A DNA stretch of 64,000 nucleotides from the NCBI GenBank assembly GCA_030765065.1, contig CM060979.1, positions 19,249,001 to 19,313,000 of the forward strand. Direction: 5' to 3'. This document shows positions 1,540-63,072 of the stretch, one piece after another. The translations under genes were made by a program, and so were the position numbers. The stretch comes from Deroplatys truncata (taxonomy: Eukaryota; Arthropoda; Insecta; Mantodea; Mantidae). Every line of letters begins with the position of its first letter. Within the stretch, counting starts at the first letter, position 1. The notes beneath the pieces are model-generated. The model did no database searches. It saw only the letters and a program-made list of their open reading frames with translations, and had not been told where the DNA came from.

Positions 1540-1689
1540 GCTCAACTTCAAAAAATATTATGGAATACATTCACACGGATTTTTCTACCTCTATCATTTA
1601 TTAGTGGAAGTATTGTACTCCACCCAAAAATTCGATACAGAGATTTCACCGGAAATATATGTTTTGAGACGCTCTGAATTAAAAAAAAT
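1540..1689. repeat. A/B family fragments, rearranged
   Basis: A B-like 5' segment (ACATTCACACGG..., then a tract like TCTACCTCTATC) runs straight into the reverse complement of an A-family 3' end (TCCACCCAAAAATTCGATAC). It looks like a recombinant or deleted pair of elements just upstream of the tandem A cluster. Confidence 0.6.
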
Positions 1690-2172
1690 CTGATGTGTTA
1701 CACTCACATGACTTTCTCTACTCTTGTACAAACTATTTTTACAAAGGTAGAATCAGATGACTGAAAAATTCAATGCCATAGCCGGGATTTGAACCACGGC
1801 TATGGCATTGAATTTTTCAGTCATCTGATTCTACCTTTCCAACCCTGTCCAACACACGGCTTGTGTGAAAGAACAATTAATTCTATTTTTACAAACCCTT
1901 ATTCCCCATATATTTCATATTAATCGACATAAACATTTGCAGAAACGATCTTTTGACATGCAGAGAGAATTACATTTTACACATAGCGACCAGTTCTAAA
2001 AATACTTGACTATCGCTTAAGGCGTACTATGTTCCCCTTGTTTTGTATTTGCAACGGAAATATAGAAATACAGAAGCCTTTAAGCATAGACATATCTCTT
2101 AATAGCTGGTTACTAGGTGCAGCACCATTCTCTTTGCCACAGTTTAATACTCTTTGCATATGCAAGACAAAA
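1690..2172 (+). repeat. Family A element, copy 1, scrambled and carrying an insertion
   Basis: It begins with the standard A-family 5' end and is interrupted by a 137-bp SINE-like foldback (1746-1882). It then resumes, but its middle third is in the opposite orientation (the stretch with the CTTGACTATCGCTTAAGG-like motif). The end matches the forward strand again. It is the first and most degraded member of the head-to-tail run up to 5770. Confidence 0.7.
1746..1882 (-). mobile_element. SINE-like retroposon with perfect 42-bp foldback
   Basis: The insert is bounded by a 13-bp direct repeat, CTATTTTTACAAA, at 1733-1745 and 1883-1895. This is a target-site duplication of the length made by LINE-machinery retroposition. 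Positions 1743-1784 and 1797-1838 are perfect reverse complements (42 of 42) around a 12-base loop. The loop and its edges hold a tRNA B-box on the minus strand (GGTTCAAATCCC). Hence I read it as a tRNA-derived SINE fragment duplicated in inverted orientation. The host is an A-family element. Mechanism is inference; the arms, loop and duplication are direct observations. Confidence 0.75.
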
Positions 2173-2174
2173 AA

Positions 2175-3068
2175 TCTGATGTGTTACACTCACATGACTT
2201 TCTCTACTCTTGTACAATCTAATTTTACAAACGCCTATTCTCCATATGTTTCATGTTAATCGAGATATCGAGATGTCAATCTTATTGGTAATTTTCTTGT
2301 AGATGCAAGGGGAATATGGTAGCTTTTAAGCGATAGTCAAATATTTTAACGCTGGTTGCTATGTGGCAAATTCCATTCTCTTTGCAATTTCAGGACATAA
2401 ACAAAATGAATAACGAATTTGAGAAAAAGTATAAGTATTGGAAAATTTAAGGAAATAACAAGCAATATCTCGAAAACGGTTCACTCAACAAAAGAAACGT
2501 ATATGACATAAGTTGTGTATTTTAACGCGATCTACATATTTTGTGTAGTAAAATTTTGTCTATCTCTTATGGTTTACCAGTTATGCAAAAGTCGTTCACA
2601 ATGAAGAATATTTTTGGAAACATTCCCAGAAAATTCGAGATATACATTTTATTTGTCATGACAATATCTTAAACATATGATATTTTAATCAAAATCGTTA
2701 GAGTCGTTTTTGAGAAAATTAAAATTTTCGAAAAATGTTCCATGTAAAGGGTAGTCTGGGGTGGGGGGATTTTCTTGAAAACCTTCGTGTCGCATCTCTG
2801 GAAGATACTGAACCTAAATACCAAGTTTGGTGTTTATCCGACTGTTCGTTTTTGAGTTATGCTGTTCACAGACACACAGACACACAGACAGACAGACACA
2901 CAGACACACAGACACACAGACAGACACACACACGGACATGTTTCCAAAAATGCTTTTTTTGGATTCAGTGATTCTCAAAACATGTATTTCCGGTGAAATC
3001 TCGGTATCGAATTTTTGGGTGGAATGCAATACTTCCCCTACTTACTATACGTAGTAGAGAAAGTAAAA
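2175..3068 (+). mobile_element. Family A element, copy 2 (full length)
   Basis: A complete non-coding element of about 0.9 kb. It opens with TCTGATGTGTTACACTCACA and has ACTTTCTCTACT about 20 bp in. It contains a G-rich block near 2758-2767 and a CACAGA/CACACA microsatellite at about 2870-2935. It closes with a TACTA/TAGTA mini-hairpin and GTAGAGAAAGTAAAA. Open frames across the microsatellite recur in other copies only because the DNA is nearly identical; they look nothing like a transposase. Asymmetric terminal inverted repeats, central microsatellite and 3' hairpin suggest a non-autonomous Helentron-type element, by inference. It abuts copy 3. Confidence 0.8.
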
Positions 3069-3072
3069 AAAA

Positions 3073-3970
3073 TCTGATGTGTTACACTCACATGACTTTC
3101 TCTACTCTTGTACAAACTATTTTTACAAACGCTTATTCTCCATCTACTTCATGTTAATCGAGATAAACATTTGCAGACTCTATCTTATTGCTAATTTTCT
3201 TGTAGATGTAGGGGAAAATATATTTACAAGGGCAATATAGAACAACAGTAGCCTTTAAACACATACATATCTCTTAATAGCTGGTTGCTAGGTGCAACAC
3301 CATTCCCTTTGCCACAGATTATAACTCTTTGCATATCCAAGACAAAAAAAATGAATAACGAATTCCCATTTGAGAAAATAAGTATTGAAAAATTTAAGGG
3401 AATAACAAGCAATATCTCGAAAATGGTTCACTCAACAAAAAAAGTGTATATGACATAAATTGTGTATTTTAACGCGATCTACATTTGTTGTGTAGTAAAA
3501 TTTTGTCTATCTCTTATGGTTTACCAGTTATGCAAAAGTCGTTCACAATAAAGAATACTTTTGGAGACATTCCCAGGAAATTCAAGATATACATTTTATT
3601 TGTCATCAAAATATCTTAAACATATGATATTTTAATCAAAATCGTTAGAGCCATTTTTGAGAAAATTAAAATTTTCGAAAAATCTTCCATGTAAAGGGTA
3701 CTCTGGGGTGGGGGGATTTTCTTGAAAACCTTCGTGTCGCATCCTTGGAAGATACTGAACCCAAATACCAAGTTTGGTGTTTATCCGACTGTTCGTTTCT
3801 GAGTTATGCTGTTCACAAACACACACACAGACACACAGACACACACACGGACATGTTTCCAAAAATGCCGGGGGTCTCAAAACATGTATTTCCGGTGAAA
3901 TTTCGGTATCGAAATTTTGGGTGGAATACAATACTTCCCCTACTTACTATACGTAGTAGAGAAAGTAAAA
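3073..3970 (+). mobile_element. Family A element, copy 3 (full length)
   Basis: Head-to-tail with copy 2 and separated from it only by a few A residues. Same ends, G-rich block (about 3710) and CA tract (about 3820-3852). It differs mostly by point changes and tract length. The segment before the 3' end lacks the usual TTTTTTTGGATTCA block. Confidence 0.8.
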
Positions 3971-4002
3971 ATTACCAAATCGAACTAACTTAGATAAAAA
4001 AA

Positions 4003-4888
4003 TCTGATGTGTTACACTCACATGACTTTCTCTACTCTTGTACAATCTAATTTTACAAACGCCTATTCTCCATATGCTTCATGTTAATCGAGATATGGAC
4101 ATGTTAATCTTATTGGTAATATTCATGTATATGCAAGTGGAGTATGGTAGCTTTTAAGCGATAGTCAAATATTTTAACGCTGGTTGCTATGTGGCGCATT
4201 CCATTCTCTTTGCATGTCCAGGACATAAAAAAATGAATAACGAATTTGAGAAAAAGTATAAGTATTGGAAAATTTAAGGAAATAACAAGCAATATCTCGA
4301 AAACGGTTCACTCAACAAAAGAAATATATATGACATAAGTTGTGTATTTTAACGCGATCTACATTTTTTGTGTAGTAACATTTTGTCTATCTCTTATGGT
4401 TTACCAGTTATGTAAAAGTCGTTCACAATGAAGAATACTTTTGGAGACATTCCCAGAAAATTCGAGATATACATTTCATTTCCCATGACATTATCTTAAA
4501 CATATGATATTTTCATCAAAATCGTTAGAGCCATTTTTGAGAAAATTAAAATTTTCGAAAAATCTTCCATGTAAAGGGTAGTCTGGGGTGGGGGGATTTT
4601 CTTGAAAACCTTCGTGTCGCATCTCTGGAAGATACTGAACCTAAATACCAAGTTTGGTGCTTATCCGACTGTTCGTTTTTGAGTTATGCTGTTCACAGAC
4701 ACACAGACACACACACACACACACAGACACACACACACACAGACACACACACGGACATGTTTCCAAAAATGCTTTTTTTGGATTCAGGAGGTCTCAAAAC
4801 ATGTATTTCCGGTGAAATCTCGGTATCGAATTTTTGGGTGGAATGCAATACTTCCCCTACTTACTATACGTAGTAGAGAAAGTAAAAA
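4003..4888 (+). mobile_element. Family A element, copy 4 (full length)
   Basis: Same orientation as copies 2 and 3, after about 30 bp of unrelated spacer. The microsatellite (about 4697-4753) is longer and CA-richer. Both terminal signatures are intact, and it runs directly into copy 5 through a short A-run. Confidence 0.8.
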
Positions 4889-5770
4889 TCTGATATGTTA
4901 CACTCACATGACTTTCTCTACTCTTGTACAATCTATTTTTACAAAGCCTATTCTCCATATGCTTCATATTAATCGAGATATCGAGATGTCAATCTTATTG
5001 CTAATTTTCTTGTAGATGCAAGGGGAATATGGTAGCTTTTAAGCGATGGTCAAATATTTTAACGCTGGTTGCTATGCGGCGCATTCCATTCTCTTTGCAA
5101 GTCCAGGATATAAAAAAATGAATAACGAATTTGAGAAAAAGTATAAGTATTGGAAAATTTAAGGGAATAACAAGCAATATCTCGAAAACGGTTCACTCAA
5201 CAAAAGAAATGTATATGACATAAGTTGTGTATTTTAACGAGATCTACATTTATTGTGTAGTAAAATTTTGTCTATCTCTTATGGTTTACCAGTTATGCAA
5301 AAGTCGTTCACAATGAAGAATACTTTTGGAGACATTCCCAGAAAATTCGAGATATACATTTCATTTCTCATGACATTATCTTAAATATATGATATTTTCA
5401 TCAAAATCGTTAGAGCCATTTTTGAGAAAATTAAAATTTTCGAAAAATCTTCCATGTAAAGGGTAGTCTGGGGTGGGGGGATTTTCTTGAAAACCTTCGT
5501 GTCGCATCTCTGGAACATACTGAACCTAAATACCAAGTTTGGTGTTTATCCGACTGTTCGTTTTTGAGTTATGCTGTTCACAGACACACACACACACAGA
5601 CACACACACACACACACAGACACACACACACACACGGACATGTTTCCAAAAATGCTTTTTTTGGATTCAGGAGGTCTCAAAACATGTATTTCCGGTGAAA
5701 TCTCGGTATCGAATTTTTGAGTGGAATGCAATACTTCCCCTACTTACTATACGTAGTAGAGAAAGTAAAA
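4889..5770 (+). mobile_element. Family A element, copy 5 (full length)
   Basis: The fourth complete head-to-tail member. Its start reads TCTGATATGTTAC, one change from the consensus. The CA tract spans about 5583-5635. Its 3' end abuts an inverted copy. Confidence 0.8.
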
Positions 5771-6561: not shown

Positions 6562-7830
6562 CGAGGGCAGTCCCAGGAGTACCCGACCTGACATATAGAT
6601 GGTGGTTGTACCTTAAAATGACTGTTGTAGAAAGTACCAACCTTATAAAGCTTAAGTCTGAAGTTTGATGATGCTACGTTGTATAGCAAATGTTTGGCAG
6701 CCATCAATAGTGAACTCTCTCAGTGAATTTGTAAACATGGATAAAAAAAAAGGTCATTCTTACGTGATACAATACTTTCATTTGAAAGGCCTTACTAATA
6801 CTAAAGCTAAACTAGATTCTACTCTGGGGGGAGTCTGCTCCTTCGTTTTACAACAGTAAAATATTGGGTGGCAGAGTTTAAGCGAGGCCGTGCGAGCTGC
6901 AGTGGTCGACCAAATGAAGTGACCACGCCAGAAATTGTGAAGAAAATCCACAAAATGGTATTGGATGACCGTCGACTGAAAGTGCACGAGCTAGCAGACA
7001 TCGTAGGCATTTCAAAAAGTCCTGTACGTCGCATACTGACTGAAAATTTAGACATGAGAAAGCTATGCGCAGGATGGATGCCGCGTTTACTCACAATGGA
7101 ACAAAAGCAGCGTGAGGATGTTTCAGTCGAGTGTTTGGCGATGTTTTGCTGCAATAAAGCCTAGTTTTTGCGTCGATTCATAACCATGGATGAAACATGG
7201 GTCTATCACTTCACACCTGAGATGAAGGTACAATCAAAACAGTGGATTGAAAGGGGAGAATCGGCTCCAAAGAAGGTGAGACAGTTCCATTTGCAGGCAA
7301 GGTCATGGTGTAAGTTTTTTGGAATATGTGTGGAATAATTTTCATTGATAATCTTTAAAAAGAAATAGCAATCAATGGCAAGTATTGTGCAAAATTATTG
7401 CAGCATTTGAATGATGAAGTCAAGCAAAAACGGCCGCATTTAGTGGAAAAGAAACGTTTGTTTCATCAAGACAAGCACCAATTCACACATCCATTATCGC
7501 CATGGTCAAAATCAATGAGTTAAAGTTCCAATTGCTTCCTCAGGCACCCTATTCGCCAGATTTAGCCACCTGTGATTATTTTCTGTTTCCAAAGTTGAAG
7601 AAATAGCTTGGTGGTAAAAGATTTGCCAACAGTGAAAAGGTGGAGTCTGCAGTTGATGGCTATTTTGCAGAACTCGACGATTCTCACTATAAACAGGGTA
7701 TCGAAGCTTTTGAACATCGCTGGGAAAAGTGTATCGAGCTGAAAGGAGACTATGTAGAGAAATTAAGATGTTTTTCCCCAACAATTTTGGTGTTTTCTTT
7801 GTTAGGTGACTACTTCTGGGACAGCCCTCG
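6562..7830 (+). mobile_element. mariner (Tc1/mariner) transposon, degenerate
   Basis: Terminal inverted repeats CGAGGGCAGTCCCAGGAGTA at the left and the reverse complement of TACTTCTGGGACAGCCCTCG at the right differ at two positions. The element is flanked by TA at 6560-6561 and 7831-7832, the standard mariner duplication. Its 1269-bp length is normal for a complete mariner. It lies inside a B-family element, so it is younger than that copy, yet its coding region is broken. Confidence 0.9.
6739..7770 (+). pseudogene. mariner transposase, broken (DD34D type)
   Basis: Translated pieces in two frames cover a mariner transposase. There is an N-terminal helix-turn-helix part from about 6739, a second helix-turn-helix region (ELADIVGISKSPVRRIL, about 6990-7040), MDETWVYHF with the first catalytic Asp (7186), HQD with the second (about 7470), and YSPDLATCDYFLFPKL with the third (about 7550-7590). 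Breaks include a frame change near 6850, an in-frame TAG at 7162-7164, further frame changes around 7280-7500 and a stop after KLKK near 7604. No functional protein is expected. The frequency of breaks suggests an old copy. Family assignment rests on the three motifs and the mariner termini. Confidence 0.85.
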
Positions 7831-12945: not shown

Positions 12946-13736
12946 TGTGAGGCAGTATTATATATCACACCATTGTAAATGCCAGAGTGATTGTAGTGTA
13001 AATTAGCATTATTGTATGGCAATGATTTGAGAGGTTTGTTAATTATAAGCATTGTTAGGAAATAAGTTTACACGGCCTCACTGAAACTGACAATAGGAGC
13101 GGGTAACAATGTAGCGAGGGGGTGAGTTGTTTATTAATTAGATGAGACAAACAAATGACGTCAGAGTAGCGCGCTTTTCTTTAGAAATAGAGGGAATATC
13201 TTCCCTAGAGCGTATGTGTTCGTAATTTTGATTGGATAAAAAAATAAGACGCTAATGTTAGCGCGTTTTATTAACCAATAGCAACTCTGTTATAATCTTT
13301 AGGCATATCGGGGTGAGGGAGTATAAATTATGAAGTCAGAGACAAGTATCGCACAGTTCAACAGAATCATGCACGGGTTACATGTCGAACAGTTCTACAG
13401 AATCTCTCGCTTCGTAAAGTTATTTATAAAATGTGAAATGCGCGGCAAATAAGTGATTACAGTTACATTCGGAAATATAACAGTTTCAGTCGGGCGTGTA
13501 TCAAGAGTAATTATGTGAAATTAATTAATTGTGACGGCAATAAAAGTGTAAAAACAAATTCTTTTGTCCGTGTTATCTTTTAGTAACAACTCCTTTCCGT
13601 TTACACATTCTGTTCAAGAGATATGCTCGACTGAGTAATAATAGCTAGCCGGAGGACAAAGAACCCAAAAATTCAAAATAGTAAAACAATAACAGGCGCT
13701 CAGCAAATAAGATAACACGAACGATACCGCGACAAG
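12946..13736 (+). mobile_element. LTR-like insertion inside the Tc1 transposase
   Basis: The boundaries are fixed by the uninterrupted transposase frame on both sides. The insert begins TGTGAGGCAGTATTATATATC. It contains a CCAAT box (ACCAATAGC near 13275), a TATAAAT box with an initiator about 30 bp downstream, and an AATAAA signal (about 13539), which is the U3-R-U5 layout of an LTR. I see no clear target duplication, and the last about 125 bp could be non-LTR sequence. It may therefore be an LTR plus adjacent internal sequence. It has no homology to family C beyond the first few bases. Confidence 0.6.
13322..13357 (+). promoter_or_regulatory. TATA + initiator core promoter in the LTR-like insert
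   Basis: TATAAAT at 13322-13328 is followed by CACAGTTC centred near 13352, about 30 bp downstream, a textbook TATA-Inr spacing. A CCAAT box lies about 45 bp upstream of the TATA. Confidence 0.55.
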
Positions 13737-14682
13737 TGGAAACGTGAAGGGACATGTACAGCACAAAAGCGTACAGGCCGACCTCGCCTGTTGACTGACA
13801 GAGACCGCCGACATTTGAAGAGGGTCGTAAAGAGTAATAGGCAGACATCTATCCAGACCACCACACAGGAATTCCAAACTGCATCAGGATCCACTCCAAG
13901 TAGGCGTGAGGTGAGAAACCTTGGATTCCATGGTCGAGCGGCTGCTCATAAGCCACACATCACGCAGGAAAATGCCAAACGACGACTCGCTTGGTGTAAG
14001 GAGCGTCAACATTACACGATTGAACAGCGGCAAAACGTTGTGTGGAGTGACGAATCACGGTACACAATGTGGCGATCCGATGGCAGGGTGTGGGTATGAC
14101 GAATGCCCAGTGAACATCATCTGCCATCGTGTGTAGTGCCAACAGTGAAATTTGGAGGTGGTGGTGTTATGGTGTGGTCGTGTTTTTCCTGGAAGGGGCT
14201 TGCACCCCTTTTGGTTTTGCGTGGCACGATCACAGCGCAGACCTACATTGATATTTCAAGCACCTTCTTGCTTCCCAATTTAGAAGAGCAATTCGGGGAT
14301 GGCGATTGCATCTTTCAACACGATCAAGCACCTGTTCATACTGCACGGGCTGTGGCGGAGTGGTTACACGACAGTAACATACCTGTAATGTACTGGGCTG
14401 CGCAGAGTCCTGACTAGAATCCTATAGAACACCTTTGGGATGTTTTTGAACGCCGACCTACATCGATACCTCTCCTCAGTTCCGCACTCCGTGAAGAATG
14501 GTCTGCCATTCCCCGAGAAACCTACCAGCACCTGATTGAAAGTATGCCTGCGAGAGTGAACGCTGTCATCAAGGCTAAGAGCGGGCCAGTACCATATTGA
14601 CTTCCAGCATTACCGATGGAGGGCGTCACGAACTTGTACGTTATTTTCAGCCAGGTGTCCGGATACTTTTGATCACGTAGCG

Positions 14683-40120: not shown

Positions 40121-40405
40121 CAGTCGTCCTCCGTGGACTAGTGGTACCGTGCTAGCCTCTAGTTCCCAAGGTCGCGGGTTCAAACCCGGCGGAGGGCGAT
40201 GGATTTTTTCGGGCGTAAAAATCGTTAGCACGGCTTCCTTCGGAAGGGAAGTAAAGCCGGTGGTCCCGTGTCGTAGATTTACGGCACGTAAAAGAACCTC
40301 AAGCCTGATAAAGAGGCCTCTGAGCAAAATTACAGGTGTTTCACGCCCAATATAGAATGGGACGCTAAGAACCATAGTAGTTAAAGAGCGTCCATAAATA
40401 AAACT
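40121..40405 (+). mobile_element. tRNA-derived SINE-2, complete, with 14-bp target duplication
   Basis: Bounded by CATTAAAATAGCAG at 40107-40120 and 40406-40419, a perfect duplication. The head at 40126-40197 (72 nt) folds like a tRNA. An 8-bp acceptor-type stem pairs 40126-40133 with 40190-40197 with one G-U, an A-box-like TGGACTAGTGGTACCG follows, and the B-box GGTTCAAACCC is at 40177-40187. The body contains TTTTTTCGGGCGTAAAAA and CTTCCTTCGGAAGGGAAG and ends ATAAATAAAACT. Three further copies are in the window. Confidence 0.9.
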
Positions 40406-54895: not shown

Positions 54896-55070
54896 GAGTT
54901 TTATTTATGGACGCTCTTTAACTGCTGTGGTCCTTAGCGTCCCATTCTATATTGGGCGTGAAAGACCGGAAAGCCATGCTAAGGATTTTTACGCCCGAAA
55001 AAAATCCATCGCCCTCCGCCGGGTTTGAACCCGCGACCTCGAGAACTAGAACCTTGCTCTTTCATGCATG
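54896..55070 (-). mobile_element. tRNA-derived SINE-2, copy 3, internally deleted
   Basis: AGTTTTATTTATGGACGCTC at the left and the tRNA-like head at the right (B-box GGTTCAAACCC on the minus strand, near 55022-55032). About 100 bp between the GGGCGTGAAA block and the head are missing, and the 5' extremity is truncated. Confidence 0.8.
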
Positions 55071-61828: not shown

Positions 61829-63072
61829 TGAGGTGCACTATTTATATTTTGGGCCTAATAATTAAAACAAGGTAATTTCCGATTGAAAACTGCTTTATTG
61901 TTTTTCAAAATATTCTCCTTTATGATCAATACACTTTTGCATCCGTTTGAACATGGATTTGAAGGCATCAACGGCTTCTTCTGCCAACGAAAATCATTGT
62001 CCATGCAATTTATTCTTGATGTTCGGGAACAAAAAGAAGTCATTGGGTGTCAAATCAGGACTGTATGGCGGATGACCCATCAATTCGATTTTTTGAGCCT
62101 TCAAATACTCTGTTGTTAAACGAAATGTGTGTGCGCTCTCATTGTCTTGATGAAGAATGATCCTACGGTTCTTTTTGGTTTTCCTTACTTCACCGAAGAC
62201 TTCCGGCAAACAAATGGTTATGTACCATTCGACATCGACCGTTTTACGTTCCTCTAAAGTCACTGTTGCCACATGGCCAGTTCTGCTGAAAAAGGAGGCG
62301 ACCATTTGCTTCGAAGTGCTTCGAGTGTGAACAACTTTTGTTGGATTTGCTTCATCTTGAAACACCCATACAGTCGACTGCTGTATACGTTCCGGCTCAT
62401 ACGTATAGATCCATGATTCGTCACCTGTTACAATCTTATATACGTCTTTTAAGGCACCGCCACTGTATTTCTTGAGTATTTTTGTACACCAATCGATACG
62501 AACATATTTTTGAGATTGTGTCAAATTATGTGGGATCCAACGAGAGCAAACCTTTTTCACGGCTAAATAATCATGCAATATTTTATATATACTGGTGGAA
62601 CTAATGTCTAGGGTTGCCTCAATCTCACAATATGTCGCATGACGATCTTTCATTATTAGTTTTTGTACAGCATCAATGTTTTCTGGAACAACAACTGATT
62701 TTGGACGACCTTCACGAACTTCATCATTGAGCGAACGGCGGCCACGATTAAATCCGTTATACCAGCGTTTCACAGTGGCAAAGGATGGAGCTTCGTCGCC
62801 AAATGTGGAAGTTAGTTGATCGATGCACTCTTGTCTTGATAATCCACGTCGAAAGTCGTAATAAATCATTGCACGAACATTTTCACGAGTTAATTCCGTG
62901 TTTTTGTTGACACACAATTTTCAAGTTAGTGTAAACAAAACAAATGACGCTCTATTGACAAAATGTTTGAAGTAGATTATGTTCAAAAATGTCCAACTTT
63001 CCATTGGAAACGTCAGATGGCACCTACAACATTCAGGGTTGCCAAGGCTCAAAATATAAATAGTGCCCCTCG
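61829..63072 (-). mobile_element. mariner transposon, nearly intact
   Basis: Inverted termini of about 27 bp: on the minus strand CGAGGGGCACTATTTATATT, and at the other end TGAGGTGCACTATTTATATT. TA flanks both (61827-61828 and 63073-63074). Length 1244 bp, close to a complete mariner. The minus-strand 5' end also contains a TTGGCAACCCTGAATG block. Confidence 0.9.
61895..62917 (-). pseudogene. mariner transposase, one nonsense codon from full reading
   Basis: ATG at 62915-62917 opens a 307-codon frame with an N-terminal helix-turn-helix (NVRAMIYYDFRRGLSRQECI), a second one (TYCEIEATLDISSTSIYKIL), TGDESWIYTYEPE with the first Asp, ILHQDNESAHT with the second, and YSPDLTPNDFFLFPNI with the third. 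There are 34 residues between second and third, so it is DD34D. A TGA at 61994-61996 follows KNKLHGQ, where relatives usually have Arg, consistent with CGA to TGA. The same frame then continues through FSLAEEAVDAFKS and FKRMQKCIDHKGEYFEKQ to a TAA at 61895-61897. Against relatives, a segment of roughly 18 residues between FKS and FKRM is missing. Confidence 0.9.

Follow-up and report, generated by a model that had tools for sequence, protein, structure and literature searches.

How a perfect foldback centred on a tRNA promoter box came to lie between two copies of a target site is the question raised by this locus of the mantis Deroplatys truncata. In the window, the stretch of 64,000 nucleotides that was analysed, a 137-bp insert occupies positions 1746–1882 between two copies of the 13-bp sequence CTATTTTTACAAA (1733–1745 and 1883–1895, plus strand). 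Positions 1743–1784 and 1797–1838 are exact reverse complements of 42 bp each, separated by a 12-base loop (1785–1796) that reads TGGTTCAAATCC on the minus strand, the T-loop or B box of a tRNA. A preliminary description of the locus had given the arms, loop and duplication correctly to the base, and its placing of the loop at a B box was also right. The longest perfect hairpin (loop 3–30) in each of three mononucleotide shuffles of the window was 11 bp, indicating that the 42-bp hairpin is not due to chance. With arms of at least 14 bp and the same loop range, eleven hits to perfect hairpins were present in the window and none in the three shuffles.

The insert lies in a dispersed host repeat (1619–1745, plus strand, continuing past 1895). 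CTATTTTTACAAA occurs 12 times in the window, twice flanking the insert and ten times in further copies of the host repeat, where it is found in the same repeat context, single and without an insert. These ten empty paralogous sites confirm the target duplication, and the retroposition that had been proposed is supported. The outermost three bases of the left arm (AAA, 1743–1745) belong to the target duplication and pair with TTT at 1836–1838. As this outer AAA/TTT is partly target sequence, the insert contributes 39 bp of the left arm, and the other 3 bp represent junction microhomology. Other features of the window were noted in passing. The host repeat family includes four near-tandem copies at 2400–5611 (start spacing 947, 880 and 885 bp), along with dispersed direct and inverted copies to ~54 kb, whose arms reach 362 bp and are 95 % complementary. 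A second tRNA-type element, in which GGTTCAAACCCGGCGGAGG.CGATG precedes a T run and CGGGCGTAAAAAT, was present at 40177–40208 (minus strand) and 55000–55031 (plus strand), and mariner/Tc1-type transposase-like frames were recognized by eye at 61997–62920 (minus), 13716–14096 (plus) and 6811–7161 (plus).

The parent unit and the short foldback family

The parent and the further foldback copies that the preliminary description had thought worth seeking were both found in the genome (4.29 Gb, 818 contigs). A pattern search with the 74-bp foldback core identified 82 places within 3 mismatches, 27 of them perfect, and the same search with the reversed core as a control returned 0 matches. A longer element (L047) carried tRNA sequence in its inverted part, and a query derived from it returned 4,903 candidates with hits at 319-bp spacing. 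The parent is a tandem unit of 319 bp, of which locus L069 comprises 7.9 copies with no mismatch. That a parent might natively possess both arms had been named as a point against the earlier interpretation; this held in part, in that foldback products are numerous, but the unit itself has one arm.

In the reference unit, TTAATTGACC stands at position 1, CTACCTTTCCA at 265–275 and AATTAATTCCA at 309–319. A tRNA was detected by Rfam in each unit of L069–L071 (53.5 bits), and ARAGORN placed a tRNA-Ser(gga) at unit positions 168–242, giving the parent a tRNA head with both A and B box. About 5 nt past the tRNA is a TTTTT run, which we take to be a possible Pol III terminator, at which transcription by Pol III from the tRNA promoter may end. 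Rfam at E≤1 reported no hammerhead and no other family of self-cleaving ribozymes in L069–L071 and L047, and a CUGANGA core was present on neither strand of the unit; a hammerhead retrozyme was rejected because no such motif was found. Rfam rows for miRNA families were likewise set aside as matches to hairpins, under their gathering scores. Contigs of IMG/VR and GTDB contained no exact match to the 25- and 27-base parent patterns. Sampling 200 kb of the genome yielded one old relative of the unit (L057:8292–9139, 70–84 % identity) together with short weak hits. As this old relative is arranged with minus units before plus units, the architecture described below is not new. The GGTTCAAACCCGGCGGAGG.CGATG tRNA-type element was also seen inside it, at about L057:8700–9000. 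Among 25 frames of at least 150 aa in the same sample, none was Penelope-like by eye.

A similarity search scored the best 40 of 959 candidates for the short foldback. From 38 fetched regions we obtained 42 alignment rows, and removal of five (inner or second matches; L029, L035, L043) left 37 short copies. As the top hits of a tail-right query these are a selected set and cannot show how common other forms are. All 37 displayed target duplications, of 10–15 bp except in L029 (scored 19, with one mismatch); that of L025 also contained one mismatch. Together with the 82 core matches and the tandem parent, these duplications speak against a one-off event on a SINE copy; an ordinary SINE with one accidental foldback was rejected on the core matches and the parent. 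At the second and third base outward from the duplication, the left flank had A and the right flank T, each in 81–86 % of the 37 short copies, which suggests one activity cutting both strands. Every short copy (37/37) started on the left at unit 267–276 and ended on the right at unit 316–321, the right side extending about 43 bases beyond the end site of the left, a difference for which two separate cDNA starts can account.

In unit terms, the left piece of the window copy (1746–1796, minus strand), a putative first cDNA comprising the left arm within the insert and the loop, runs antisense from unit 269, or from 272 if the shared AAA is counted, to unit 219, whilst the right piece is sense and covers unit 231–316. 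The right arm (1797–1838, plus strand) corresponds to unit 231–272, and its CGG at 1797–1799 is compatible with both sides, so that the two pieces meet through a 3-bp microhomology. The tRNA-type origin given in the preliminary description is supported, as is a junction at the T-arm, where this CCG/CGG join lies. Beyond the arm lies a tail at one end only (1839–1882, plus strand), equivalent to unit 273–316 and containing the AC-rich stem-loop CACACGGCTTGTGTG; we infer that its outer end marks the start of a second cDNA. The window copy lacks an A box, as it spans unit 219–269 and 231–316 and the A box falls within unit 168–218. Its Pol III promoter is incomplete, consisting only of the B box in the loop.

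A few variations within the family were also apparent. Five of the 82 foldbacks (C6:29059972, C16:180968864, C5:82730471, C6:58848624 and C16:650421736) displayed the junction CGGATATGG instead of CGGCTATGG, equivalent to one extra unit base (A) before the switch. Two pairs of foldbacks (window 1746 with L009, and L026 with L031) seemingly share their insertion point within diverged host repeats. All four start at GGTAG and their inserts are identical, yet the flanks are 61–82 % alike where aligned (47 bp adjoining the insert for the window and L009), so these may perhaps be separate insertions at a preferred site.

Two end sites in short and longer elements

A one-unit query, for which the best 40 of 806 candidates were scored, produced 184 matches, and the 150 of these that were listed were parsed into 36 clusters. 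Among the matches listed, 22 of the 36 clusters were on one strand only and 14 on both, with minus units followed by plus units in all 14 of the mixed clusters. The outer ends lay at 275–282 on one side and 317–319 on the other in 11/14 mixed clusters among the matches listed, and the three deviants had ends at 319/189, 217/229 and 224/277. Both ends at one same site were seen in none of the 14, again among the matches listed. The unit has two fixed end sites, at about 276 and 319 and separated by 43 nt, and junction positions vary between loci. Locus L074 illustrates the arrangement as a palindrome with two arms of ~274 bases and, at just one of its sides, a 43-base tail. Tandem and inverted copies that end at two internal sites are unlike a SINE monomer inserted in one orientation from its 3' tail. 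The window element fits this rule as a case without any full unit, its halves joined at the tRNA T-arm. Judging from the genomic ends, the two sites are probably adjacent internal start sites for reverse transcription that bound the one-sided tail.

Some junctions had features of their own. Those close to unit position 1 (TTAATTGACC), which repeatedly show AATT/TTAA palindromes (centres of L069 and L074, and C8:36834290), may reflect a second hot spot or the 5' terminus of a linear RNA. In L070, one of three unit boundaries (~1200) is altered, with GGTGGAATTAATGG in place of GGTCAATTAATGG, and at 1373–1415 the 5' half of the tRNA is missing from the inverted end, as though a structure had been skipped by the enzyme.

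The ends bear directly on the mechanism first suggested for this locus, self-primed copy-back, in which one cDNA or antisense RNA folds back at the T-arm and serves as its own template. The CCG/CGG of the T-arm at the junction and the perfect palindromic centre GGTCAATTAATTGACC of L074 are what such a process might leave, but it predicts mirror-image ends, and the two sides instead terminate at differing fixed sites, in 11/14 mixed clusters among the matches listed and in 37/37 short copies (267–276 against 316–321). Its fit is further reduced by junction positions that vary by locus. We therefore disfavour self-priming and regard it as very improbable. Twin priming with an L1-type helper acting on a linear SINE RNA was also rejected, as it does not readily give many identical rounds and a fixed pair of end sites.

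Target duplications were found by eye in all six longer elements with both ends in view (L047, L048, L070, L072, L074 and L075). These duplications, along with those of all 37 short copies, the ten empty paralogous sites in the window and the recurrence of one architecture across many chromosomes, speak against an event at the DNA level, be it recombination or inversion involving neighbouring copies, or an artefact of assembly. Inverted arrays are difficult to assemble, and two of the 37 short copies, at L010, are a local duplication of a single insertion; as a general explanation, a DNA-level origin is nevertheless scarcely credible.

One founder or repeated formation

Variants within the elements were examined for information on their templates. 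A private variant, GATAACTG, was present in all four units of L070 and in its inverted end, whereas L071 units carried GATGACTG in its place. Its presence throughout L070 indicates that both cDNAs were copied from one RNA or from RNAs with a single source. Amongst the short foldbacks, 6/82 copies carried variants concordant between the arms, of four kinds; the concordant variants include CAGGTG, CAGACG and CGGATG, and AAAATTTC is a further named variant. Shuffling arms among copies gave an expected concordance of 0.53, and six was reached in 0/20,000 shuffles. Concordance fits formation from variant RNAs or arm-to-arm conversion; it was discarded as proof of repeated formation because conversion gives an identical pattern.

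A pattern search for the opposite arrangement (tail-left) returned 26 rows, eight of which had the T-arm junction with the tail on the opposite side. One further row was a tail-right copy with a similar flank, and the remaining 17 differed after CCACGG and may represent other junctions, truncations or mutated units. L047 and L048, which comprise more than one unit and differ in their bodies (83 % identity over the 'up' region), also display the T-arm junction. Its occurrence in tail-left and longer forms indicates that this junction probably arose repeatedly. Both-tailed palindromes (L035/L043) were considered as an ancestor and dismissed, since they turned out to be segments of multi-unit forms.

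The alternative is that the short foldback is an element in its own right, with most tail-right copies descending from one founder that would have formed a single time by the mechanism proposed below and be transcribed from outside or from a weak promoter. The group is one-sided, in that 77/82 short foldbacks were unmatched by the tail-left pattern (≤3 mismatches), and C7:85236462 and C6:144930107 have in common two variants that are not mirrored in the opposite arm. No T-arm foldback of the GATAACTG variant was found within 1 mismatch, which counts against formation from every unit variant. Taken together, the one-sidedness, the lack of a GATAACTG foldback and the shared unpaired variants indicate that much of the group may derive from a foldback master. 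The identical cores of 27/82 copies, which a founder would explain, fit copying of a master and repeated formation equally. Against a founder, no A box was seen in the short form, and the tail-left, longer and concordant-variant copies would require separate origins or conversion. Moreover, the tandem arrays use the end sites of the short copies, so priming explains these ends. In sum, we consider a founder origin for most tail-right copies rather unlikely.

Proposed mechanism and comparison with known systems

We think it probable that the family is a non-autonomous, tRNA-bearing element inserted by Penelope-type double-ended target-primed reverse transcription. The template RNA would be the 319-nt unit with its tRNA-like domain, as a circle or a multimer, and would contain two internal start sites for reverse transcription, each ending in UUCCA (unit 275 and 319) and flanking the AC-rich stem-loop. 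A Penelope-type enzyme would cut both target strands, usually 12–15 bp apart, with AA outside the left cut and TT outside the right, and each target 3' end would prime one cDNA on the unit RNA, one per start site. The antisense cDNAs would extend inward for zero to many rounds before joining, often via short homology. The predicted outcome is minus units ahead of plus units, together with a tail of 43 bp at one end and a duplication of 10–15 bp. In the window copy, neither cDNA would have completed its first round: both would have halted near the tRNA T-arm and been joined by way of CCG/CGG, with the 39–42 bases copied by both forming the perfect arms. A bolder version, which we regard as possible rather than probable, sees a retrozyme-like class lacking a ribozyme, with the tRNA domain replacing the hammerhead and a circular RNA copied for many rounds from both target strands by a Penelope-type enzyme, such that the hairpin ends would be a signature of two-headed rolling-circle copying.

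Penelope-like elements (PLEs) offer the closest likeness. For PAc of Anolis, both target strands are described as cut and extended, with reverse transcription starting at two adjacent internal RNA sites at an AC-rich stem-loop and the stretch between them forming the genomic 'tail' (PMC11167929). The account of Penelope in Adineta vaga includes direct and inverted pLTRs, a 31-bp one-sided tail, duplications of 8–10 bp and junctions that are palindromic; self-priming on an antisense template is the model it favours (PMC3846280). Shared with PLEs are tandem or partial tandem copies with an adjacent inverted copy within one insertion, as at L069–L075, a tail at one end (optional and of 30–40 bp in PLEs), target duplications and, in the mechanism proposed here, two internal starts at an AC-rich stem-loop with cutting and extension of both strands. 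In contrast to PLEs, the 319-nt unit seems too short for a reverse transcriptase gene, it has a tRNA-like domain and no hammerhead of the kind reported in PLEs was found, and one start site per end is nearly a rule.

The way in which PLEs are copied is debated, these accounts favouring self-priming (PMC3846280) on the one hand and two-strand cutting with internal starts (PMC11167929) on the other. Each copy of the present element displays both putative cDNA starts, the join and the template, so the models give different predictions that are countable from genome sequence, in an element that is small, numerous and partly very young. The mechanism proposed here would suggest that a tRNA-bearing unit can take a Penelope-type route without a hammerhead, linking SINEs, retrozymes and PLEs. 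Such insertions would also seed hairpins able to form dsRNA, from 42 bp to ~274 bp per arm (L074).

Metazoan retrozymes are described as tandem units of ~300 bp with hammerheads and circular RNAs, for which PLEs are suspected as helpers (PMC7229834). The combination of small tandem units and target duplications, a retrozyme feature, is present here, and the likeness extends to low GC, a range from dimers to large multimers and a proposed circular RNA template. A type I hammerhead defines retrozymes, whereas none was found in our units, which contain a tRNA instead.

LTR elements also provide a comparison, as Helenus TRIMs carry a tRNA-like sequence in their repeated terminal unit; they differ, as described, in having duplications of 4–5 bp, a primer-binding site and a polypurine tract (PMC10886601). 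Amongst tRNA-derived SINEs, Sbg1-9 of the cockroach Blattella have target duplications of 10–15 bp (PMC9191728). Our element resembles SINEs of this class in its tRNA head with A and B box and in duplications of the same length, and differs from them in its tandem unit, inverted ends and two internal end sites, in the run of five T behind its tRNA, and in the missing A box of the window copy. In LINE-1 twin priming, two cDNAs are made from both target strands on one RNA to give an inverted end, as an occasional variant; here, in contrast, inverted forms are frequent and show fixed sites and repeated rounds.

Among the open-licence papers listed in our literature searches, none had a title describing a tRNA-bearing non-autonomous Penelope-like element of this kind. 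A ribozyme-free unit with a tRNA and the nearly regular use of one end site on each side are apparently new, whilst the parts are known in PLEs. On the best reading of these comparisons, the element behaves like a Penelope-like element and is a putative non-autonomous derivative of that group.
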